A stretch of DNA of 53,741 nucleotides from Leptospiraceae bacterium (GTDB taxonomy: Bacteria; Spirochaetota; Leptospiria; Leptospirales; Leptospiraceae), in assembly GCA_947458405.1 (NCBI GenBank), contig CANGZW010000012.1, positions 1 through 53,741 of the forward strand, in the 5' to 3' direction. Below are positions 15,274 through 39,907 of this stretch, piece after piece (positions within the stretch are counted from its first letter, which is position 1; every line of letters starts with the position of its first letter). The position numbers and the translations under genes are program-made. The notes beneath the pieces are model-generated. The model saw only the letters and a list, made by a program, of their open reading frames with translations, had not been told where the DNA came from and did no database searches.

Positions 15274-16503
15274 CTACTTTTCTTTTAAGTAATAATATAT
15301 TAAGTAGTCATTGGATATGACCGGTTCTGAAAAATAAATTTCAGAAGAAGATAGGATTACACTATTACTGCTTGTTCCTCCACTGATTAGTACATTTCCA
15401 TTGGGAAGAAGTGTTGTTGTATGACCATTTCTTGATATGAGTAAAGTATTCGGTGCAATCATAGATGAGATTCGATAATCATATATTTCAGCTGTGTTTA
15501 AAACTGTAAACTTTGTAGAGCTTGTAGAACGAATCCCACCAGTTAAAAGGACTTTTCCATTTGCCAGTAATACAGCTGAATGTTGATGTCTTGCTGTATT
15601 CATATTGGAAGTAGAATAAAATAAATTTGTTGAAAAATTAAATATTTCATCTGTTAACAGACTCACACCTGTGGAAGAATTTAACCCCCCACTGATTAGT
15701 ATATTTCCATCGGGTAAAAGAACTGCGGAGTGAGAATTCCGTGATGTGGTTAAATCTCCTAAAACAGAGAAAATGCCAGTATCGGGATCATAAATTTCCG
15801 AGGAGGAAAGGGAGCTCAGAGAAGTCTGATCATATCCTGCTACTACAACCACTTTTCCGTTGGAGAGCTTTGTCGCAGTATGAGAGCCCCTTTTTATCTG
15901 CATACTATTGATTGTGGAAAATGAATTGGTAGTAGGGTCATACAATTCAGCTGAGTTTAAAGATCCAGTCCCCGGAAAAAAACCTCCACAAATCAATACT
16001 TTTCCATTGGACAATAAAGTTGCTGTATGACCATATCTTGCAGAATTTAAGGTAGGACCTGAAGAGAAACTCAAAGTAGAGGGGGAAAAAATTTCAGTGG
16101 AACTTAATGTCCCCGAGGAGGAATTTCTTCCTCCTATTACCAACACATTCCCATTTGAAAGAAGTGTTGAAGTATGAGCATATCTAGTGACAATCATATT
16201 TCCAGTATTGCTATACAATCCGGTAGTATAATCATAAATTTCTGCGGGGTCAGTATCACTGACAGATGAGCCCCCAATTATTACAACTTTCCCATCGTTA
16301 AGAAGATTGGATGTATGAAAAGTCCTACTCAAACTCATCGAAGATGTAAGCTGAAAATAACCAAAATACAGAAAATAATAGAAAGTATTGTACTTATAAT
16401 TTACATTTGAGGAATGATTACCATTTGATTGCAAACAATTAGCTAATATAAAAATAGCAATCAAAAATATAGTTTTAATGAATTTTTTAAAAATAATAGT
16501 CAT
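15274..16503 (-). CDS. Kelch-repeat lipoprotein, seven-bladed propeller
   Basis: About 409 aa. The N-terminus is hydrophobic and ends in lipobox LANC. Seven Kelch-type repeats follow, each with R-x2-HT/S-x2-LL-x-NG-x-VL-x2-GG and then an E-I/L-YD strand; seven GG/AG sites match a seven-bladed propeller. I prefer ATG 16503 over the TTG two codons upstream. It overlaps the stop of the CX4C paralogue 16487-18457 by 17 bp, the same pairing of a CX4C protein with a beta-rich lipoprotein as at 1-5232. Likely a surface binding protein; ligand unknown. Confidence 0.8.
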   Translation of the reverse strand: MTIIFKKFIKTIFLIAIFILANCLQSNGNHSSNVNYKYNTFYYFLYFGYFQLTSSMSLSRTFHTSNLLNDGKVVIIGGSSVSDTDPAEIYDYTTGLYSNTGNMIVTRYAHTSTLLSNGNVLVIGGRNSSSGTLSSTEIFSPSTLSFSSGPTLNSARYGHTATLLSNGKVLICGGFFPGTGSLNSAELYDPTTNSFSTINSMQIKRGSHTATKLSNGKVVVVAGYDQTSLSSLSSSEIYDPDTGIFSVLGDLTTSRNSHSAVLLPDGNILISGGLNSSTGVSLLTDEIFNFSTNLFYSTSNMNTARHQHSAVLLANGKVLLTGGIRSTSSTKFTVLNTAEIYDYRISSMIAPNTLLISRNGHTTTLLPNGNVLISGGTSSNSVILSSSEIYFSEPVISNDYLIYYYLKEK

Positions 16504-18457
16504 ATCCAAGCTCTACTTTATTTTCAATATCCCGTTTCAATCCGGATTGTGTGGGTACAACTGCAGTTTTAAAATTAAATTGAAATGTACCTCCCGGTGT
16601 TTTTTCCACTGGGAATAAATTTTCAGAAATCTGAGTTTTACTTCTAGTTAAAATAGTTGAATCGAATATACTGTATATATAAATAGCTGAGTATATAGCC
16701 GCTGAAATAGATAAATTAGCTTTGGATTGATTATAGGCTGTCACTTTGGACTCTTCATTTTGTATATCAGTAAGAACAGAGTAATTAAAAAGATTATATC
16801 CTCCTAATAAAAGTAGGGGAGAAGTTTTTTCTAAATTATTATACTCTAAAGAATTATGAGCCGTAATACCTGCAAATGAAAGTGTTGTAATTAGACTGGC
16901 CACACCTCCATAAAAAATCAATTTAGATTTTAGTTTATCATTTTCTTCTTTAATATGCCAATAGCCCGGAAAAATAAATTTTCTGTAGTCAATCTTTACT
17001 ACTGTTGGAATAGTAGGCTCTTCTGATTTTACTACTCTTTCCTTCCCAACCATTAAGTCTGCAATTCTAATATCCACAATTTGGAATGTTTTTGTACATT
17101 TTTCTATGGCTTCTTCTAGAATATATTCTGAAGATTTGAATAAATCTTTAGCAAGATTTACTGATTCTTTAAAACGTATTTCTCGTTTATTGACTTCTTC
17201 CTGGCTTGATTTTTCTTTTAATTTTGAAAGTTCGGAGTAGTTTAATTCGGATAAACTGCAATATGTTCTCGCACCATTTAAAAAATAGTACTTTTTATAA
17301 TTTATGATTTTTTGAACTTTACTCTCTATCCTATTTTTAATATTTGTATAACGTGCTGATTTAGGCTTTTGAGATACTCTAGAGACTAAATTAACATATT
17401 CTCTTAAAGATTCATTCAATTTTAAATCAACATAATCTGAATCTGCTTTAATTTCCAAAATAGATAAATTTTTAATATCTAGTATTTCAATCCTTTCTAA
17501 TAATATATCTTTTAGTTCATTCACTGTTGATACTGAATTATCTAAGAGAGAATCATAGAGCTTTTGATATTTTGAACTCAAATCCTCAAGTGATTTAGAA
17601 GTATATTTTGATTGGTTATTTATATTCATATCTAATCTTTGTATTACAGTAGCCAATGAATTAAAATAAACTGTTGAAATACGGGCGGATAAAAAATTCT
17701 TTTCTAGCTCGAAATATTTTGGAAACTTTTTCTTTATATCTGCCTCTATTTTCATATCCAGCACACTTTTGTATTGAATATAAGAGTTCACATAATCTTT
17801 TTTGTCAGCGAGTAAATCCCCGTATAGAATCTTATCTTCTCTTTTTTTTAAAAAATTTCTTTCTTCATTTGTAGGTTCTGAGTCCGGGTTGGGAAAAATT
17901 TCCAAAGTAATGACTTCTTTTAAATTAATAGGTGAAAACTCTATATTTTTATCTGTTATGATCGAACTAGATTCCATAATTAATCGAGAACTGTCTAAGA
18001 AGGATGTTATAAATATTCCGACTTCAGTTTCGAAATTATTCATAGGAAGATAGATTTCCCTACTAGTTACAAGTGACATCTCCGGTATTTTTTCTAAGTT
18101 TATAATTAGCTTAATTTTATTTCCCGATATTTCGATTTCTCCCCCTAATTTATGGGTGGGCTGAAAACTTTCTTCTATCCATTTATCACAAGGATTCGTA
18201 TTACACCCGTCTCCTTTTTTATTGATACTTTTATTATATGCCTTTATGAAATTAGTATCTATAAATGTAATACTATTACTTAAATTGGAATGAATTTTCA
18301 TAGAAAGCAAATTTGTAATTTTTTCTGTAAGAAGAGGGCTAACACTTTTCTTTGCTGTTAACTCGGATAGATATAGTTTTTTGGATGGTTCTGAATATAG
18401 ATTTATAGCAAAAAATAGAATAATTGACGAAAATAGTAAAATTGATCTTATATTCAT
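16487..18457 (-). CDS. Secreted CX4C/TPR-like protein with C-terminal membrane segment (paralogue 2)
   Basis: 656 aa with a signal peptide (ending NLYSE). The N-terminal module has C85-x4-C90 followed by HKLGGEIEISGNKIKLIINL. A TPR-like unit (GDLLADKKDYVNSYIQY) and a long helical region follow. The C-terminal part has the IFPGYWHIKEENDKLKSK motif and hydrophobic segments. It is 20 bp downstream of paralogue 3 and overlaps the Kelch lipoprotein, so the three form an operon. Two tandem copies suggest a local duplication that has since diverged. No function known. Confidence 0.75.
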   Translation of the reverse strand: MNIRSILLFSSIILFFAINLYSEPSKKLYLSELTAKKSVSPLLTEKITNLLSMKIHSNLSNSITFIDTNFIKAYNKSINKKGDGCNTNPCDKWIEESFQPTHKLGGEIEISGNKIKLIINLEKIPEMSLVTSREIYLPMNNFETEVGIFITSFLDSSRLIMESSSIITDKNIEFSPINLKEVITLEIFPNPDSEPTNEERNFLKKREDKILYGDLLADKKDYVNSYIQYKSVLDMKIEADIKKKFPKYFELEKNFLSARISTVYFNSLATVIQRLDMNINNQSKYTSKSLEDLSSKYQKLYDSLLDNSVSTVNELKDILLERIEILDIKNLSILEIKADSDYVDLKLNESLREYVNLVSRVSQKPKSARYTNIKNRIESKVQKIINYKKYYFLNGARTYCSLSELNYSELSKLKEKSSQEEVNKREIRFKESVNLAKDLFKSSEYILEEAIEKCTKTFQIVDIRIADLMVGKERVVKSEEPTIPTVVKIDYRKFIFPGYWHIKEENDKLKSKLIFYGGVASLITTLSFAGITAHNSLEYNNLEKTSPLLLLGGYNLFNYSVLTDIQNEESKVTAYNQSKANLSISAAIYSAIYIYSIFDSTILTRSKTQISENLFPVEKTPGGTFQFNFKTAVVPTQSGLKRDIENKVELGYDYYF

Positions 18458-18477: not shown

Positions 18478-20517
18478 TTAAAACCTATTTGTATACTCAA
18501 AAATATACTGTAACTCAGGCGTAGGACGTGCCAAAAAATTTCCAGGGTAAAGACTAGCATTAGCTTTTATCTGAATCCTCTCATTTTCTCCCAAATCCAA
18601 TAATTTGATGGAATTGGGATTATTTTTTCCTATTATATTTTTTTCATCGGAATAAGTAAACGCATCAAGAAGACTTACCATATAAAATAATGAAAAAATT
18701 CCAAGGGAGTTATTAAATTCACCCGCGGATCTCGTGTAGTCAGAGTACAATTGATTAATTTTTAATGTATCATTGAGTGCTATAAGATTTCCCCCTGTAG
18801 AATTTAGATACAAATAATAAGAGGTGGGTGTTCTTTCAAAAGAAGAATATTGATTATAAGAAATGTACGACTTATTTCCAGAGTACATGACATACCAAAA
18901 AGATGCCCATCCTCCGTAGTACAAAAATTTAGATTTTAGTTCTCCGGGTTCCACATAGATATGACCGTTTCCTGGAAAGTAAAGAGATTTATCCATTCTA
19001 ATCTGATTCATTGAGTCAGTGGAAAAAGCATCGTCTTTGTGAAAAAATCTTCCAATTCTACTTTCTCGATCTTTGTTTTCATTGAGAAGGCTAACCAAAC
19101 GATTATAGGAATCGATAACTTCTGGAGTAGCAAAATCGGACTTTTTTAAAATATTTTCAGCATTTTCTAGATATTCTTCAATTTTATTCTCTGCTTGGAA
19201 TCTAGCAAATAATGAAAACTCTTTTTTCTTAAGAGAATATTCTAAATATTCTCTTTCGGCTAGATCGCAATACGATTTCACCCTCCCTGCAACAAATGAT
19301 TTTCCCGTCGTTTCAGTGGCTTTGATTTTCTTTTCTATCTTTGTTCTATATAAATTATAGCCTTCCCCGTTTCTATTCTGCAGAGAAGAAAAAATATCCT
19401 TATATTCTCTATATGCCTCTGTGAAAAAAAAGTTATCATACTGTTTATCAGCTTTTTTTTCTTGTATTTCAAATATCTTTAATACTAAGGTTTCAATCCT
19501 TTTATTTAATGCTGAAGATATTTCTTTTTGTTTATCGGGGCTCAATCTATTCAAAGAATTTGCGATTTTTTCATATTTTTTAGTATATTCTTTTAGTAAT
19601 TCGGGTGTATCTTTAGATCGAGTTGAAAATTCAGAGTCAATCTTTGTGATTTCACTTTGAAATACATTGTAGAAAGATTGATTTCGTCTAGATAGTACTC
19701 CTTCTTCATATACTTTAATTAATCTTCTAGTTTCAAGTGTGAGAGATTCTTGAATTCCTTCAATAATAGATTGATATAGATCACTTGCCAATTGGTACTT
19801 CTTCTCTTTGAAAGCTCTGTCACCTTCTTCTAATTTTGATTTTAAGGAGGCGATGATTAAATCACCCCGTGTATCATTTGATCGAAATTCATAAATATTT
19901 ATATCAATTCCATCTATGGATTTAATACGGATACTTCCAAAATCTATTTTTTCTTCTTTAAATTCTGGAGGAGCATTGGCGGTATTTATTTTATAATTTG
20001 GTTCTAATAAGGATCTTGTGATTTCTTCCACAAAGTATTCCATTTGGTTTTGGGTGTAGGTCACTTCTTTAACATCAACCATACCTTTCCCAGAGGAGAG
20101 ATCAATTAATCGTAGAGTTAAAATATATTTTCCATTGGAAAACTGAAGGGAGCCGGATAGTTTTTGATCGGGACTTAAGCTATCTTCTATCATTTTATAA
20201 CATTTTTCAGTATCACATCCTATCTGTTGTTGTTTCTTTAATTGATTTAAATACCCGATAATGATTACATCATCTATAAAAGAATGTGTTTTTTTAAAAT
20301 GTTTGTAAAGGTTGAGAGAAATTTGATTTCTCACCCTATTTTTAATATCAGGTGTCACTCCATTTGACTCATAGAGTGCTTCTAAATATATCTTTTTTAA
20401 CCCTGAGCTTTGTCCTGTAATAGAAAATGTATAAAAAAACAAAATAAAACTAAATATAATTTTAAATATATTACAAGTATGAGTTATTTGCGTCTTATAT
20501 TTATGTGATTTTAGCAT
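18478..20517 (-). CDS. Secreted CX4C/TPR-like protein with C-terminal membrane segment (paralogue 3)
   Basis: 679 aa. A basic n-region precedes a hydrophobic signal segment ending SITGQ. C101-x4-C106 is followed by QKLSGSLQFSNGKYILTLRLID, the clearest TolB/CsgG-like strand pattern of the four paralogues. The TPR-like centre reads GDRAFKEKKYQLASDLY. The C-terminal half carries YFPGNGHIYVEPGELKSKFLYYGG and hydrophobic stretches. It is first in the operon with paralogue 2 and the Kelch lipoprotein. Possible envelope-assembly or sensing role; this is inference only. Confidence 0.75.
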   Translation of the reverse strand: MLKSHKYKTQITHTCNIFKIIFSFILFFYTFSITGQSSGLKKIYLEALYESNGVTPDIKNRVRNQISLNLYKHFKKTHSFIDDVIIIGYLNQLKKQQQIGCDTEKCYKMIEDSLSPDQKLSGSLQFSNGKYILTLRLIDLSSGKGMVDVKEVTYTQNQMEYFVEEITRSLLEPNYKINTANAPPEFKEEKIDFGSIRIKSIDGIDINIYEFRSNDTRGDLIIASLKSKLEEGDRAFKEKKYQLASDLYQSIIEGIQESLTLETRRLIKVYEEGVLSRRNQSFYNVFQSEITKIDSEFSTRSKDTPELLKEYTKKYEKIANSLNRLSPDKQKEISSALNKRIETLVLKIFEIQEKKADKQYDNFFFTEAYREYKDIFSSLQNRNGEGYNLYRTKIEKKIKATETTGKSFVAGRVKSYCDLAEREYLEYSLKKKEFSLFARFQAENKIEEYLENAENILKKSDFATPEVIDSYNRLVSLLNENKDRESRIGRFFHKDDAFSTDSMNQIRMDKSLYFPGNGHIYVEPGELKSKFLYYGGWASFWYVMYSGNKSYISYNQYSSFERTPTSYYLYLNSTGGNLIALNDTLKINQLYSDYTRSAGEFNNSLGIFSLFYMVSLLDAFTYSDEKNIIGKNNPNSIKLLDLGENERIQIKANASLYPGNFLARPTPELQYIFEYTNRF

Positions 20518-35385: not shown

Positions 35386-37212
35386 ATGAAGTACTTCCTA
35401 TTAGCTCTAGTTTTATTCAATTTCGCCCTCTATCCCATAGAGAAAAAGTCCATTTATGTGTATAAAATTCTGACCAAAAACACAAAAGACACCAATTTTG
35501 AATCCAAGTTTAGAACCAAGATGACGGGGATATTACTGAAGGACTTCTCCGAGTACAATCTCATGGATGACGACTCCATTGCAGGGCTCAAGGCAAAGCT
35601 CGAAAAATCCAAGATGTTTGGTTGCAACGAAGAAGCCTGTATGCGGGAGATTTCTAGATCTCTGAATGCGGATGAGGTGATCACGGGAACGATTGAAGAG
35701 AACAATGGCAGGTTCAAATACAGTTTTAAAAATTCCTCCCGCGTGAAAAAGGGAGAGGAGAATCTCTCGATCAAGAGTTTGGCAGATGGGGAGTTTTATT
35801 TGAACCAATGGGAGTATTTTACGGGTGAGATAGTAAGAAAACTCATGAATCCGTCTTACGCTATGAACTACAAGGATGCTCCCCTGTATGAAAATCTGGA
35901 TGATTTTAATTACACCACGGTCAAGGATCTCAAAGAGATCAAACTTCCCGAGATCAAGGGCAATACACTCGATATTGTAAAACGTCTCAAAGAAGTCACC
36001 ATTGCCGATGCAGATACCGCCTACCAGAAAAAGGACTATCTCCTGGCACTCAATGGATTTCGGGATGCGAGAGATGCATTGGCAAGTCTTTCTCCGGAAG
36101 ATAAGAATAAAGCGGGGAATATGGCGACCGACATACAGAATCGGATCTACATGGCGGGGGATGCGATGTTTGCGGAGAGGCTGGGTGAATTGGAAACGTA
36201 CTACAAAGAGAACTCTCCCATGAGTTTAAAGGCGGTGAAAAAGAGCAAGGGGTTAGATGGATGGTTGTATTTGTATACAGATTATCGTAAGACACTCGAG
36301 GAGGGAGAGAGAAATCCCGTGATGGAGAAGCGGATTGCGAAGCGGGTTGTGGAACTGGCTGGATGGAGATTCAATCCAGAAATGGAATCTGTTTTTCTAG
36401 AGGTAGAAAATAAATCAGAGGAATTCTGGAGAAAGGGGGAATATGCGGAGTATATTGATTATTTAAAAGAAAAACTCACACAACTCAAGGAGTTTCAGAG
36501 CAGGGGTGGGACTCGGGATGTGTATGTAACTTCCCTTACGTCTAAAATAAATCAATATGCAGAGAGATTGAAAGCAGAGGAGAAATCTATATCCAATAAG
36601 ATCTCTTTATACACAGATGCCTCTGTTGCAGATACGTCATACAATAAAAAAATTGAATTGGAAAAAATAAAAGAGGACTTAGCCCGGAAGGTGAATTTCG
36701 AACTACAGGTTAATTTACCCGAAACCTTTACCACAAAAACAGGGATCAAGTTTACAAAGATTCTCAAAAAAGACGGAAAGCCAGTCTATGTGTCAGACAG
36801 AATTCGACCAGATCAAGCCGACTCCTGGTATTTTGCGAGAGATTACGCGGTGAATCTAAATAAGGAAGACAATTGTCCTGATTGCTATCGACTGCCGTAT
36901 AGGGAGGAGATTGAGAATTTGAAGGCAGATAGAGACTATGAAGGGCTATGGTTGCAAAGTTGGAGTCCTGCATATTTTGGTATGACGGCGGGAAATCTTT
37001 TTTTGGGGTTTTATACATTTGATTATGTTCATGATGTTGTTTTTCATCCTTTAAGTTGGCAATCCTATCTATACCCGATTTCGCCTGATTCAGTGTATCC
37101 CTCCCGTGGGGGCTCCTGGGATATCGATGAACGCTCTTTCCGCTCTGCCAATCGCCGCGGCTACGGCTGGTACGACTTCTACGGTTTTCGTTTGGTCCGC
37201 CCCCTTCGTTAA
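35386..37212 (+). CDS. CX4C/TPR-like protein fused to FGE/C-type-lectin domain (paralogue 4, candidate variable protein)
   Basis: 608 aa with a signal peptide. The N-terminus matches the other three paralogues: C80-x4-C85, then ADEVITGTIEENNGRF, EYFTGEIVRKL and the TPR-like ADADTAYQKKDYLLAL. The C-terminal ~170 residues differ completely. They carry FGE-sulfatase/C-type-lectin features: CPDCYRLPYREEIE, then RGGSWDIDERSFRSANR and a terminal GFRLVRPLR. FGE catalytic residues are not evident, so binding is more likely than catalysis. The gene is visibly richer in G+C than its neighbours, and its last ~114 bp reach about 60%. It is the last gene of the plus-strand run, after a 71-bp gap. Confidence 0.8.
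   Translation: MKYFLLALVLFNFALYPIEKKSIYVYKILTKNTKDTNFESKFRTKMTGILLKDFSEYNLMDDDSIAGLKAKLEKSKMFGCNEEACMREISRSLNADEVITGTIEENNGRFKYSFKNSSRVKKGEENLSIKSLADGEFYLNQWEYFTGEIVRKLMNPSYAMNYKDAPLYENLDDFNYTTVKDLKEIKLPEIKGNTLDIVKRLKEVTIADADTAYQKKDYLLALNGFRDARDALASLSPEDKNKAGNMATDIQNRIYMAGDAMFAERLGELETYYKENSPMSLKAVKKSKGLDGWLYLYTDYRKTLEEGERNPVMEKRIAKRVVELAGWRFNPEMESVFLEVENKSEEFWRKGEYAEYIDYLKEKLTQLKEFQSRGGTRDVYVTSLTSKINQYAERLKAEEKSISNKISLYTDASVADTSYNKKIELEKIKEDLARKVNFELQVNLPETFTTKTGIKFTKILKKDGKPVYVSDRIRPDQADSWYFARDYAVNLNKEDNCPDCYRLPYREEIENLKADRDYEGLWLQSWSPAYFGMTAGNLFLGFYTFDYVHDVVFHPLSWQSYLYPISPDSVYPSRGGSWDIDERSFRSANRRGYGWYDFYGFRLVRPLR
37099..37212 (+). other. Candidate diversity-generating variable region (3' end of lectin-like gene)
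   Basis: I count 69 G/C in these 114 bases, against roughly one third in the window. It encodes RGGSW...RSANR, then nine residues before GFRLVRPLR. Eight of those nine use NNC codons (cgc ggc tac ggc, then tgg, tac gac ttc tac), as expected if AAC codons of a template had been mutated at adenines. The GC-rich tail would match an initiation-of-mutagenic-homology region. Neither template repeat nor reverse transcriptase is in the window, so this is a candidate only. Confidence 0.5.
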
Positions 37213-37344
37213 GGGATAGTTGGGCTTAAAGTATGGTGTCTGAATATCTGAAACTCTCTACGGGATGGGGGCAAAAGTCATGCTATTGAAAAGGATAGGA
37301 TTAGTAAAAATCTGGAGAATCGGGAAGGGGGTTTGGTTTGTGTA

Positions 37345-37500
37345 GTACCTCACCCCCGACTGGTTTTATTTGTCGTATATTTTCGGATTGACCCCTCTCT
37401 CCACTGCATTGGAAAGGATAAGCAGTAGAGAGGGGGTGATTTGGTTAGTAAATAAGTACTGGTAAATGTATAGTATGTTTTATTTTATGATAGATATACT
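37345..37500 (+). repeat. Intergenic hairpin element, copy A
   Basis: Starts with GTACCTCACCCCCGACT, has a hairpin at 37391-37437 (ACCCCTCTCTCCACTGC against GCAGTAGAGAGGGGGT) and ends with TAGTATGTTTT...GATATACT. Copy B (39691-39846) has the same 46-bp lead, the same 47-bp hairpin length and a matching tail. Inner stem bases differ between copies but still pair. TCACCCCC in the lead can also pair with GGGGGTGA at the hairpin's 3' side, giving two exclusive folds. Confidence 0.75.
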
Positions 37501-37789: not shown

Positions 37790-38647
37790 CTACAAAATCC
37801 CATTCTCTCTAAGCTGATCTTCCGAAAGACCTACCGCTTTTAAAATAACTTCTATAGAAAGTTCCATATCTTTCATTTTTCGAGCAGTTTCCAACTTGTT
37901 TTTAAATTCACCTTTTTCCACACCTTCTTCCAAAGCCCTTTCATACAAGGTTAAAGTTTTTTGTTTTCCCATAATCGTCTCCTCAATTAATTCTCTGCTT
38001 TCCAATCTGGATCTAAATATATAATCCAACATTTCTTCTTCTAAATCAATCCTTTTTGATTCTTCCATAGAATTTAAGATTTCCTTGATTTTACCCCAAC
38101 CCTCTATGAATTCTTCCCAAGGAAATCTAATGATTTTTAAGAGCAATAATCCTGCCTTTAATTCTAAATTCTCAAATTCCCTTACTGGATCAATCTTCTG
38201 TAAATCAAAGACCAAAAACTCTTCCCTATCTCCCGTAAGAATCGGATTTGTGAGATTTTTGATTTCATCTAGTTCACTTAAAGGATCCCAATTGTCGAGC
38301 CCTTGGTAAAACAAGACGGGAATAATAGATGACATCTTACCAAATTCTTTTTTCTGCCACTTGTGAATGGCGTGTTTGTACTTGATCATCTGTATCTGGA
38401 AATCACTAAATCTTCTTGACTTGTGTTCTAAGAGAAAATATAGTTTCTCATCAGAATTCTGAATGGGAATTTCATAGAGAATGTCATACAATAATTTCTT
38501 TTTTCGATAGTAGATATCCTGAATGATACCTATATCCTTTAACTCCAGCAATTCCGATTTCTCTTTCAGAAGGAATCGAAAAAATTCTATTGCACAGTCT
38601 ATTCTTAGAAAGAGGATTTTCCAGAATATATCATGGTAGTCGGGCAT
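37790..38647 (-). CDS. Rpn/YhgA-type PD-(D/E)XK nuclease
   Basis: 285 aa. The N-terminal half matches the Rpn (recombination-promoting nuclease, formerly transposase_31/DUF4351-linked) group: HDIFWKILF, then the nuclease core LLYDILYEIP with Asp and LYFLLEHKS with Glu-x-Lys. The C-terminal part is charged and helical. Rpn proteins nick DNA and are linked to defence and horizontal transfer. TAGGAGAT precedes ATG 38647. It lies alone between repeat elements. Confidence 0.8.
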   Translation of the reverse strand: MPDYHDIFWKILFLRIDCAIEFFRFLLKEKSELLELKDIGIIQDIYYRKKKLLYDILYEIPIQNSDEKLYFLLEHKSRRFSDFQIQMIKYKHAIHKWQKKEFGKMSSIIPVLFYQGLDNWDPLSELDEIKNLTNPILTGDREEFLVFDLQKIDPVREFENLELKAGLLLLKIIRFPWEEFIEGWGKIKEILNSMEESKRIDLEEEMLDYIFRSRLESRELIEETIMGKQKTLTLYERALEEGVEKGEFKNKLETARKMKDMELSIEVILKAVGLSEDQLRENGIL

Positions 38648-38955: not shown

Positions 38956-39276
38956 ATGTTGAAAATTGAAAACATTCTGAGAACGATTCAAGAAGATCAA
39001 TTTAGAATTAGCAATCATGCCCTAGAGGAAATGGAGAATGATGATTTAGATTTATACAATGTTCTTCATTCAGTAGAAAAAGGAGAAATCATTGAAGAAT
39101 ATCCGAAAAGTAGAATTACACCATCCTGCTTAATTTTAGGTATGGATACAAAATCTAATCCTTTACACAGTGTATGGGGATATTTTGAAGAAAGATTCTA
39201 TTCTGTTCTTATTACTGTTTATAAACCTAACAGAAGAGAATGGATGGAAGATTTCAAAACAAGGAGGTTCACATGA
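38956..39276 (+). CDS. DUF4258 protein, probable toxin of a type II TA pair
   Basis: 106 aa. The N-terminal ISNHALEEMENDDLDLYNVLHSV helix pattern and the following strands (ESPCLILG-like, then VWGYFEERFYSVLITVYKP) match DUF4258, small proteins related in fold to MqsR/RelE-type mRNA interferases. It overlaps the zinc-finger partner by 4 bp (ATGA), and toxin-first order is as in mqsRA. Toxicity is inferred from context. Confidence 0.7.
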   Translation: MLKIENILRTIQEDQFRISNHALEEMENDDLDLYNVLHSVEKGEIIEEYPKSRITPSCLILGMDTKSNPLHSVWGYFEERFYSVLITVYKPNRREWMEDFKTRRFT

Positions 39277-39524
39277 AAGAAAAAATCCATAAATGTTTGA
39301 ACTGCGGAATAGGTAATACAAAAATTAAAGATGTTCAGAAAATACTATCAATGAACAGTGATACAGTTCTCATAAATATAAAAGCTGAAGTTTGCGATCA
39401 TTGTGGAGAAAGATATTACGACCCAGAAACTGTTCGGTATTTTGAAAAGATTAAATTAGAATTAAAAAATGGGAATAGTAGTCAATTAATTCCAGTCGGT
39501 ACATCTTACAAAGTAGCTAGTTAA
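39273..39524 (+). CDS. YgiT/MqsA-type zinc-finger antitoxin
   Basis: 83 aa from ATG 39273, chosen over an in-frame upstream ATG at 39240 because AAGGAGG lies 5 bases before it and it gives a 4-bp coupled overlap. The zinc finger has CLNCG and, 33 residues later, CDHCGERYYDPE, as in MqsA. The C-terminal ~35 residues are too short for the helix-turn-helix of full MqsA, so DNA binding may rely on another region or partner. Confidence 0.75.
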   Translation: MKEKIHKCLNCGIGNTKIKDVQKILSMNSDTVLINIKAEVCDHCGERYYDPETVRYFEKIKLELKNGNSSQLIPVGTSYKVAS

Positions 39525-39907
39525 AGTAATACCGAAGAGAATTAGGATTTTATTTTTTATATTATTGAATGTAATCTACTATCGTTAGTCCCCCCCGAGT
39601 GTTTCCCATTGCACTTAACCTTCCCCCTTCTGTCCCATTTGTTTGGGAAGATGGGGGATAGCTAGAGACAGGATGGTTTTTGGAGGATTGGTACCTCACC
39701 CCCGACTTTACAGATTTATAGTTCTTAATTGTATTGACCCCTCTCTCCATGCCATTATGAAAGAGATGGCACAGAGAGGGGGTGATATGTTTGGTAAACT
39801 AATATTGGTAATCGAATAGTATGTTTTTTATTATGATAAGTATACTTATCGTGATGAGCCTGTCGAATTATACTCTCTACATAGCAATAATTACAAAATC
39901 TAAATAC
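39525..39907. other. 383-bp non-coding spacer
   Basis: Convergent spacer between the antitoxin and corA. It contains C-rich stretches near 39590-39650, repeat element B (39691-39846) and a GTGATGAGCCTGTCGAA motif (39851-39867). No gene-like ORF. Confidence 0.6.
39691..39846 (+). repeat. Intergenic hairpin element, copy B
   Basis: Same layout as copy A. The hairpin at 39737-39783 pairs ACCCCTCTCTCCATGCCAT with ATGGCACAGAGAGGGGGT. The inner stem is ATGCCAT/ATGGCA here but CACTGC/GCAGTAG in copy A, so pairing is kept despite changed bases. TCACCCCC and GGGGGTGA are also both present. It has the same orientation as copy A, 2346 bp away, with the Rpn gene and TA pair between them. Confidence 0.75.

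Follow-up and report, generated by a model that had tools for sequence, protein, structure and literature searches.

In Treponema denticola, the TvpA family comprises scattered targets of diversity-generating retroelements (DGRs) with an FGE-sulfatase domain of the C-type-lectin fold, several per genome and with variable 3' ends (PMC4891356). Several isolates carry such targets without a reverse transcriptase (RT) and without a template, which was read as leftovers of a lost core (PMC4891356); the templates are known from other isolates, and adenine-specific change was therefore shown directly. Large DGR surveys start from the RT, and remote targets on fragmented assemblies go undetected (PMC8144416). 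We analyzed a stretch of 53,741 nucleotides from the draft genome of a Leptospiraceae bacterium (hereafter the window, on contig C12), where the initial annotation had proposed that the 3' end of one gene (37099-37212) is a DGR variable region acted on in trans. The frame, the G+C content and the codon ends of this segment match DGR-type tails elsewhere in the same genome, while neither the template nor the RT that the proposal calls for was found in the draft assembly. The genome fits the T. denticola kind, i.e., orphan targets of a kind already described, and we assign a probability of about 0.65 to the reading that the window segment is the variable region of such a target. Compared with T. 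denticola, the Leptospiraceae templates are predicted only, at least two tail types are present, and the domain of the window gene is too degenerate for Pfam.

The candidate variable-protein gene (35386..37212, forward strand, as are all of its parts) encodes 608 amino acids, with an N terminus that by eye resembles a signal peptide. Matches within the same genome delimit an N-terminal domain at 35386..35994 (residues ~1-200) that is common to a large paralogous family. When the whole protein was used as the query, 22 related stretches were found in the genome, most of them matching residues 1-250. Another member of the family lies in the window at 18478-20517, and the gene at 16487-18457 looks related by eye.

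The C-terminal domain comprises the last 165 residues, and complete copies are present on C46, C127 and C44 in addition to the window gene on C12. Its copy on C115 is frameshifted and diverged; there, the paralogue of the window gene (L069 1993-4072) is split by the frameshift and ends in a tail reading RGGNW..GTKLRL in A+T-rich codons. Paralogue alignment and a profile match define a conserved scaffold at 36718..37092. The profile of the domain matched FGE domains of the same genome partially, around YRLP and across 41 columns (E 8.7e-5, probability 60%), and the domain ends like these FGE domains; from this likeness we read it as probably degenerate FGE-sulfatase or C-type-lectin-like. Pfam, PHROGs and NCBIfam gave no match naming the domain, a single-sequence structure prediction reached a pLDDT of 40, and relatives of the domain were found neither in IMG/VR nor in GTDB contigs nor in 80 near genomes. 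Two weak matches among 393 genomes of the phylum lay in ORFs resembling unrelated peptidases and were discarded. The candidate variable segment sits at the 3' end of the gene. Judged by composition and by replacement relative to C46, it includes a putative hypervariable stretch at 37093..37182, which is followed by a conserved 3' tail at 37183..37224 (GGTTTTCGTTTGGTCCGCC...), delimited by identity with C46 and C44 and a possible initiation site of mutagenic homing.

The jump in G+C content noted at 37099-37212 proved exact (69/114) and is the peak of the whole window at the 114-bp scale: a value of at least 69/114 is reached in just 14 of 53,628 positions of a 114-bp frame, and all frames with at least 58% G+C start at 37071-37106. 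The rest of the gene has 41% G+C and the whole window 34%. Likewise, third-position C makes up 55% in the 38 codons of the segment versus 18% in the remaining gene. The annotation had also counted NNC codons in eight of the nine positions before GGT-TTT-CGT (GFR), and the count is correct (CGC GGC TAC GGC TGG TAC GAC TTC TAC); given the NNC rate of the gene itself, the binomial probability is 1e-5, for a stretch that was chosen after inspection, as were the features behind some other numbers for this segment. Among 58,874 windows of 37 codons in open frames of at least 250 amino acids on the contigs of the assembly, 33 contain at least 54% NNC; the high scorers among real genes are the window segment and FGE tails, and fractions as high also occur in short reading frames that arise by chance on other strands. 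The annotation took these codons as what mutation of AAC codons would yield, but the non-variable codons mostly end in C too and the bias is segment-wide, so that NNC richness by itself is no proof of AAC-derived codons.

With a G+C content of 0.62, an NNC fraction of 0.57 and a GC3 of 0.68, the segment is comparable to eight G+C-rich FGE tails of the same genome, while four other FGE tails (C9, C169, C5 and C39) have NNC fractions of 0.05-0.22 and keep the local composition. This contrast bears on the view that the segment is an ordinary C terminus of the FGE or lectin fold, with an ancestral RGGSW..GFRLV frame and a G+C and codon bias stemming from its amino acids or from old horizontal transfer. 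Similar frames do occur in ordinary FGE tails (RGGSF..GFRL on both C169 and C5), and RGGNW is encoded by A+T-rich codons in the diverged C115 copy, yet it is precisely the ordinary FGE tails that retain the composition of their surroundings. Moreover, the window gene and its C46 paralogue share 91% DNA identity in the N-terminal and middle parts, 40% at 37093-37182 and 96% over the next 27 nt, and ordinary divergence does not give such a drop. We therefore regard an ordinary C terminus as improbable.

Further comparisons point in the same direction. Where the C12 and C46 proteins share a residue, the codons differ in 8 of 9 cases in the variable stretch versus 19 of 88 upstream (P 1e-4). On C46, the 3' tail is matched at 95% identity across 42 nt, and on C44 at 88% across 33 nt; no synonymous differences from C44 are seen in its 7 codons versus 39 of 75 upstream (P 0.013). 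Judging from these alignments, the window segment is replaced relative to C46, with the 3' tail kept. The counterpart stretch on C46 is not NNC-rich (0.16). Since the paralogues on C46, C127 and C44 differ from the window segment in length and at synonymous positions, they were not recently written from its template.

Plain cassette exchange, in which the 3' end came by recombination or gene conversion from a different lectin-like gene (one possibly written by a DGR) and an RT never wrote this gene, would also give a sharp swap that is flanked by the conserved scaffold and tail and accompanied by length changes. A YhgA-like (Rpn-type) neighbor might be involved; one such gene lies downstream of the window gene and another on the contig of the C115 copy. 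However, no donor was found in the draft assembly, and gene conversion alone leaves unexplained two groups of FGE tails, described below, which have uniform synonymous sites and hypervariable first and second positions and which the window segment resembles. We consider such an exchange possible but unlikely. It is very improbable that the window gene and its paralogues on C46, C127 and C44 all diversify their tails RT-free, by swapping whole C-terminal cassettes that vary in length and sit between a constant scaffold and a constant 3' tail, with the other tails being DGR-written.

The genome contains 17 FGE-sulfatase stretches, eight of which end in a G+C-rich and NNC-rich segment running from RGGSW to the stop (contigs C147, C141, C47, C144, C145, C30 and C116; L098-L103, L106). 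They fall into group A (C147 at 6389, C141 and C47), with the tail ..GFRLARTP, and group B (C144, C147 at 4631, C145, C30 and C116), mostly with the tail ..FRLVLLP or near it. Within group A, 0-2 third-position differences were counted in the 37 codons of the segment versus ~98/198 upstream; for C147 and C47, the values are 0/37 and 98/198, respectively (P 3e-10). Over the same segment, 17-19 differences fall on first or second positions. Adenine occurs in at least one copy in 20 of the 25 variable columns, where it is the commonest base, and in 8 of the 89 constant columns. This pattern argues for template copying combined with base-specific mutation: under gene conversion every codon position would have become uniform, and protein-level selection fails as an explanation because synonymous differences would stay. 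As any variable column can be explained by a mismatch derivable from A, that test is empty without a known template, and the contrasts in codon position and A content were used instead.

Group B shows a similar trend with a greater third-position change, and for this reason it would be either older or derived from more than one template. Fisher tests of its pairs gave P <0.05 (uncorrected) in 6 of 10 cases, and all 4 pairs above 0.05 involve C30. Group A copies are hypervariable at the inferred template-adenine positions and uniform otherwise, which is what a DGR test looks for, and the signature is seen in 7 of the 8 FGE tails. A DGR origin of group A, and of group B without C30, is thus very likely. 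The eight FGE tails are stronger evidence of a DGR than the window segment itself, for which no second copy written from its template was found in the assembly. The window segment as a target is supported by its composition, its frame, its conserved 3' tail and the fact that it was replaced in comparison with a paralogue of 91% identity, which make this reading probable, though unproven. Exact patterns of the 3' tails found nothing when viral and GTDB contigs were scanned. A group-B-like tail at the edge of C192 was considered as a truncated template; however, the same sequence is present in the flank downstream of C145, and the tail is an adjoining piece of the C145 gene.

Phage DGRs carry a hairpin with a 7-10 bp stem and a 4-nt loop 4-34 bp away (PMC3240598). 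No hairpin was found after the window gene. After C47 and C145 there are stems of 11 bp with 4-nt loops, and after C141 and C147 stems with longer loops; the loops are not GRNA, and these hairpins may be terminators. The 11-bp stem with its 4-nt loop (AAATTTCTGTC..GACAGAAATTT) is identical just after the variable regions of C145 (L100) and C47 (L103), i.e., of one group B and one group A gene, and may represent a homing hairpin, a repeat or a terminator.

The searches for a template and an RT that the initial annotation proposed came out negative in the draft assembly. A search of the assembly for a template with mismatches confined to adenines, also when run with an adenine-tolerant 60-nt pattern allowing 3 mismatches, returned just the window segment itself, and a short match on C132 was dismissed as chance. 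A template repeat for groups A and B was likewise not found among the contigs. No DGR-type RT was found in the 198 contigs with the RVT_1 profile or with two DGR RT protein queries; the best RVT_1 score (13.4 bits) falls within an ABC-ATPase-like ORF, while DGR-type RTs of relatives, which served as controls, score 38-80 bits. One Avd-like protein of a relative, joined to an RT query, found nothing either. As a complete DGR, with RT and template, the system fails in the draft assembly. Since this is a single draft genome in 198 contigs, 96.5% complete and with a smallest contig of 3,049 bases, the result is not decisive for a core of 2-3 kb. The core may have been lost, or it may be unassembled or outside the contigs, as would be the case if it lay on a plasmid or phage that was not binned or on a contig of small size.

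Two class-level relatives (G033 and G042), the positive controls of the RT search, have a DGR-like core that was not found in the genome of the window. It consists of an Avd-like ORF and an RT with the motifs IGNQTSQ and YMDD; in G033, a template-like stretch downstream reads RGGSFNNTATNLRGANR..NNN, and G042 shares it with 89% identity across 100 nt. The RT ORF of G033 (contig C14; L056 / L154) has 275 amino acids and is missing a stretch that its counterpart in G042 (332 amino acids) contains. Possibly, the G033 core is dead with an intact template.

A template for groups A and B was predicted by restoring A wherever a first or second codon position of their segments varies, and the result was then searched. 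It matched six cyanobacterial plasmid records with 73-79% identity, whereas the same search with the unrestored segments gave no match. All four plasmid matches that were opened (Acaryochloris pREC1, Anabaena pANA02, Microcystis p1FD4 and Fischerella plasmid3) lie near an RT gene: in three the match comes straight after the gene, and in the fourth it is ~2.2 kb away with a transposon between. Avd is annotated in two of the four and FGE-family genes in three. Translated, the matches run to ..GFR or similar. From their position and content we take them to be DGR templates, belonging to complete local cores such as were not found in the Leptospiraceae assembly. Since the restoration of asparagine codons naturally favors asparagine-rich templates, the matches support the DGR reading of groups A and B without proving it. 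The likeness concerns these groups and not the window segment, for which the guessed part of the query gave no plasmid match. A search among phages gave no match.

If the window segment was written as in known DGRs, a G+C-rich template repeat would have given an RNA copy whose reverse transcription was error-prone at adenines, chiefly those of AAC codons. The cDNA would then overwrite the target between the conserved 3' tail and the upstream homology, here the 3' end of the degenerate FGE-type lectin-like domain, and such mutagenic retrohoming would leave C-ending codons whose first two positions vary. The window segment would have been written from a template separate from those of groups A and B, by a core acting in trans.

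These results show that targets can be recognized without a core, from hypervariable first and second positions next to uniform third positions, and that searching with a template deduced from the targets finds template-like repeats beside RTs elsewhere. The genome joins T. denticola as a case of orphan targets, and nine of its genes can be named as places to look for variation.

The surroundings of the window gene show some further features. The downstream YhgA-like gene (PF04754, Rpn-type) is located at 37790-38647, and by eye similar ORFs flank other paralogues. An intergenic repeat of 156 nt is present at 37345-37500 and 39691-39846 with 73% identity, and a comparable stretch is also present after the C46 paralogue. 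At 38956-39524, a DUF4258 gene overlaps an MqsA-antitoxin-like gene, and the two look like a toxin-antitoxin pair.
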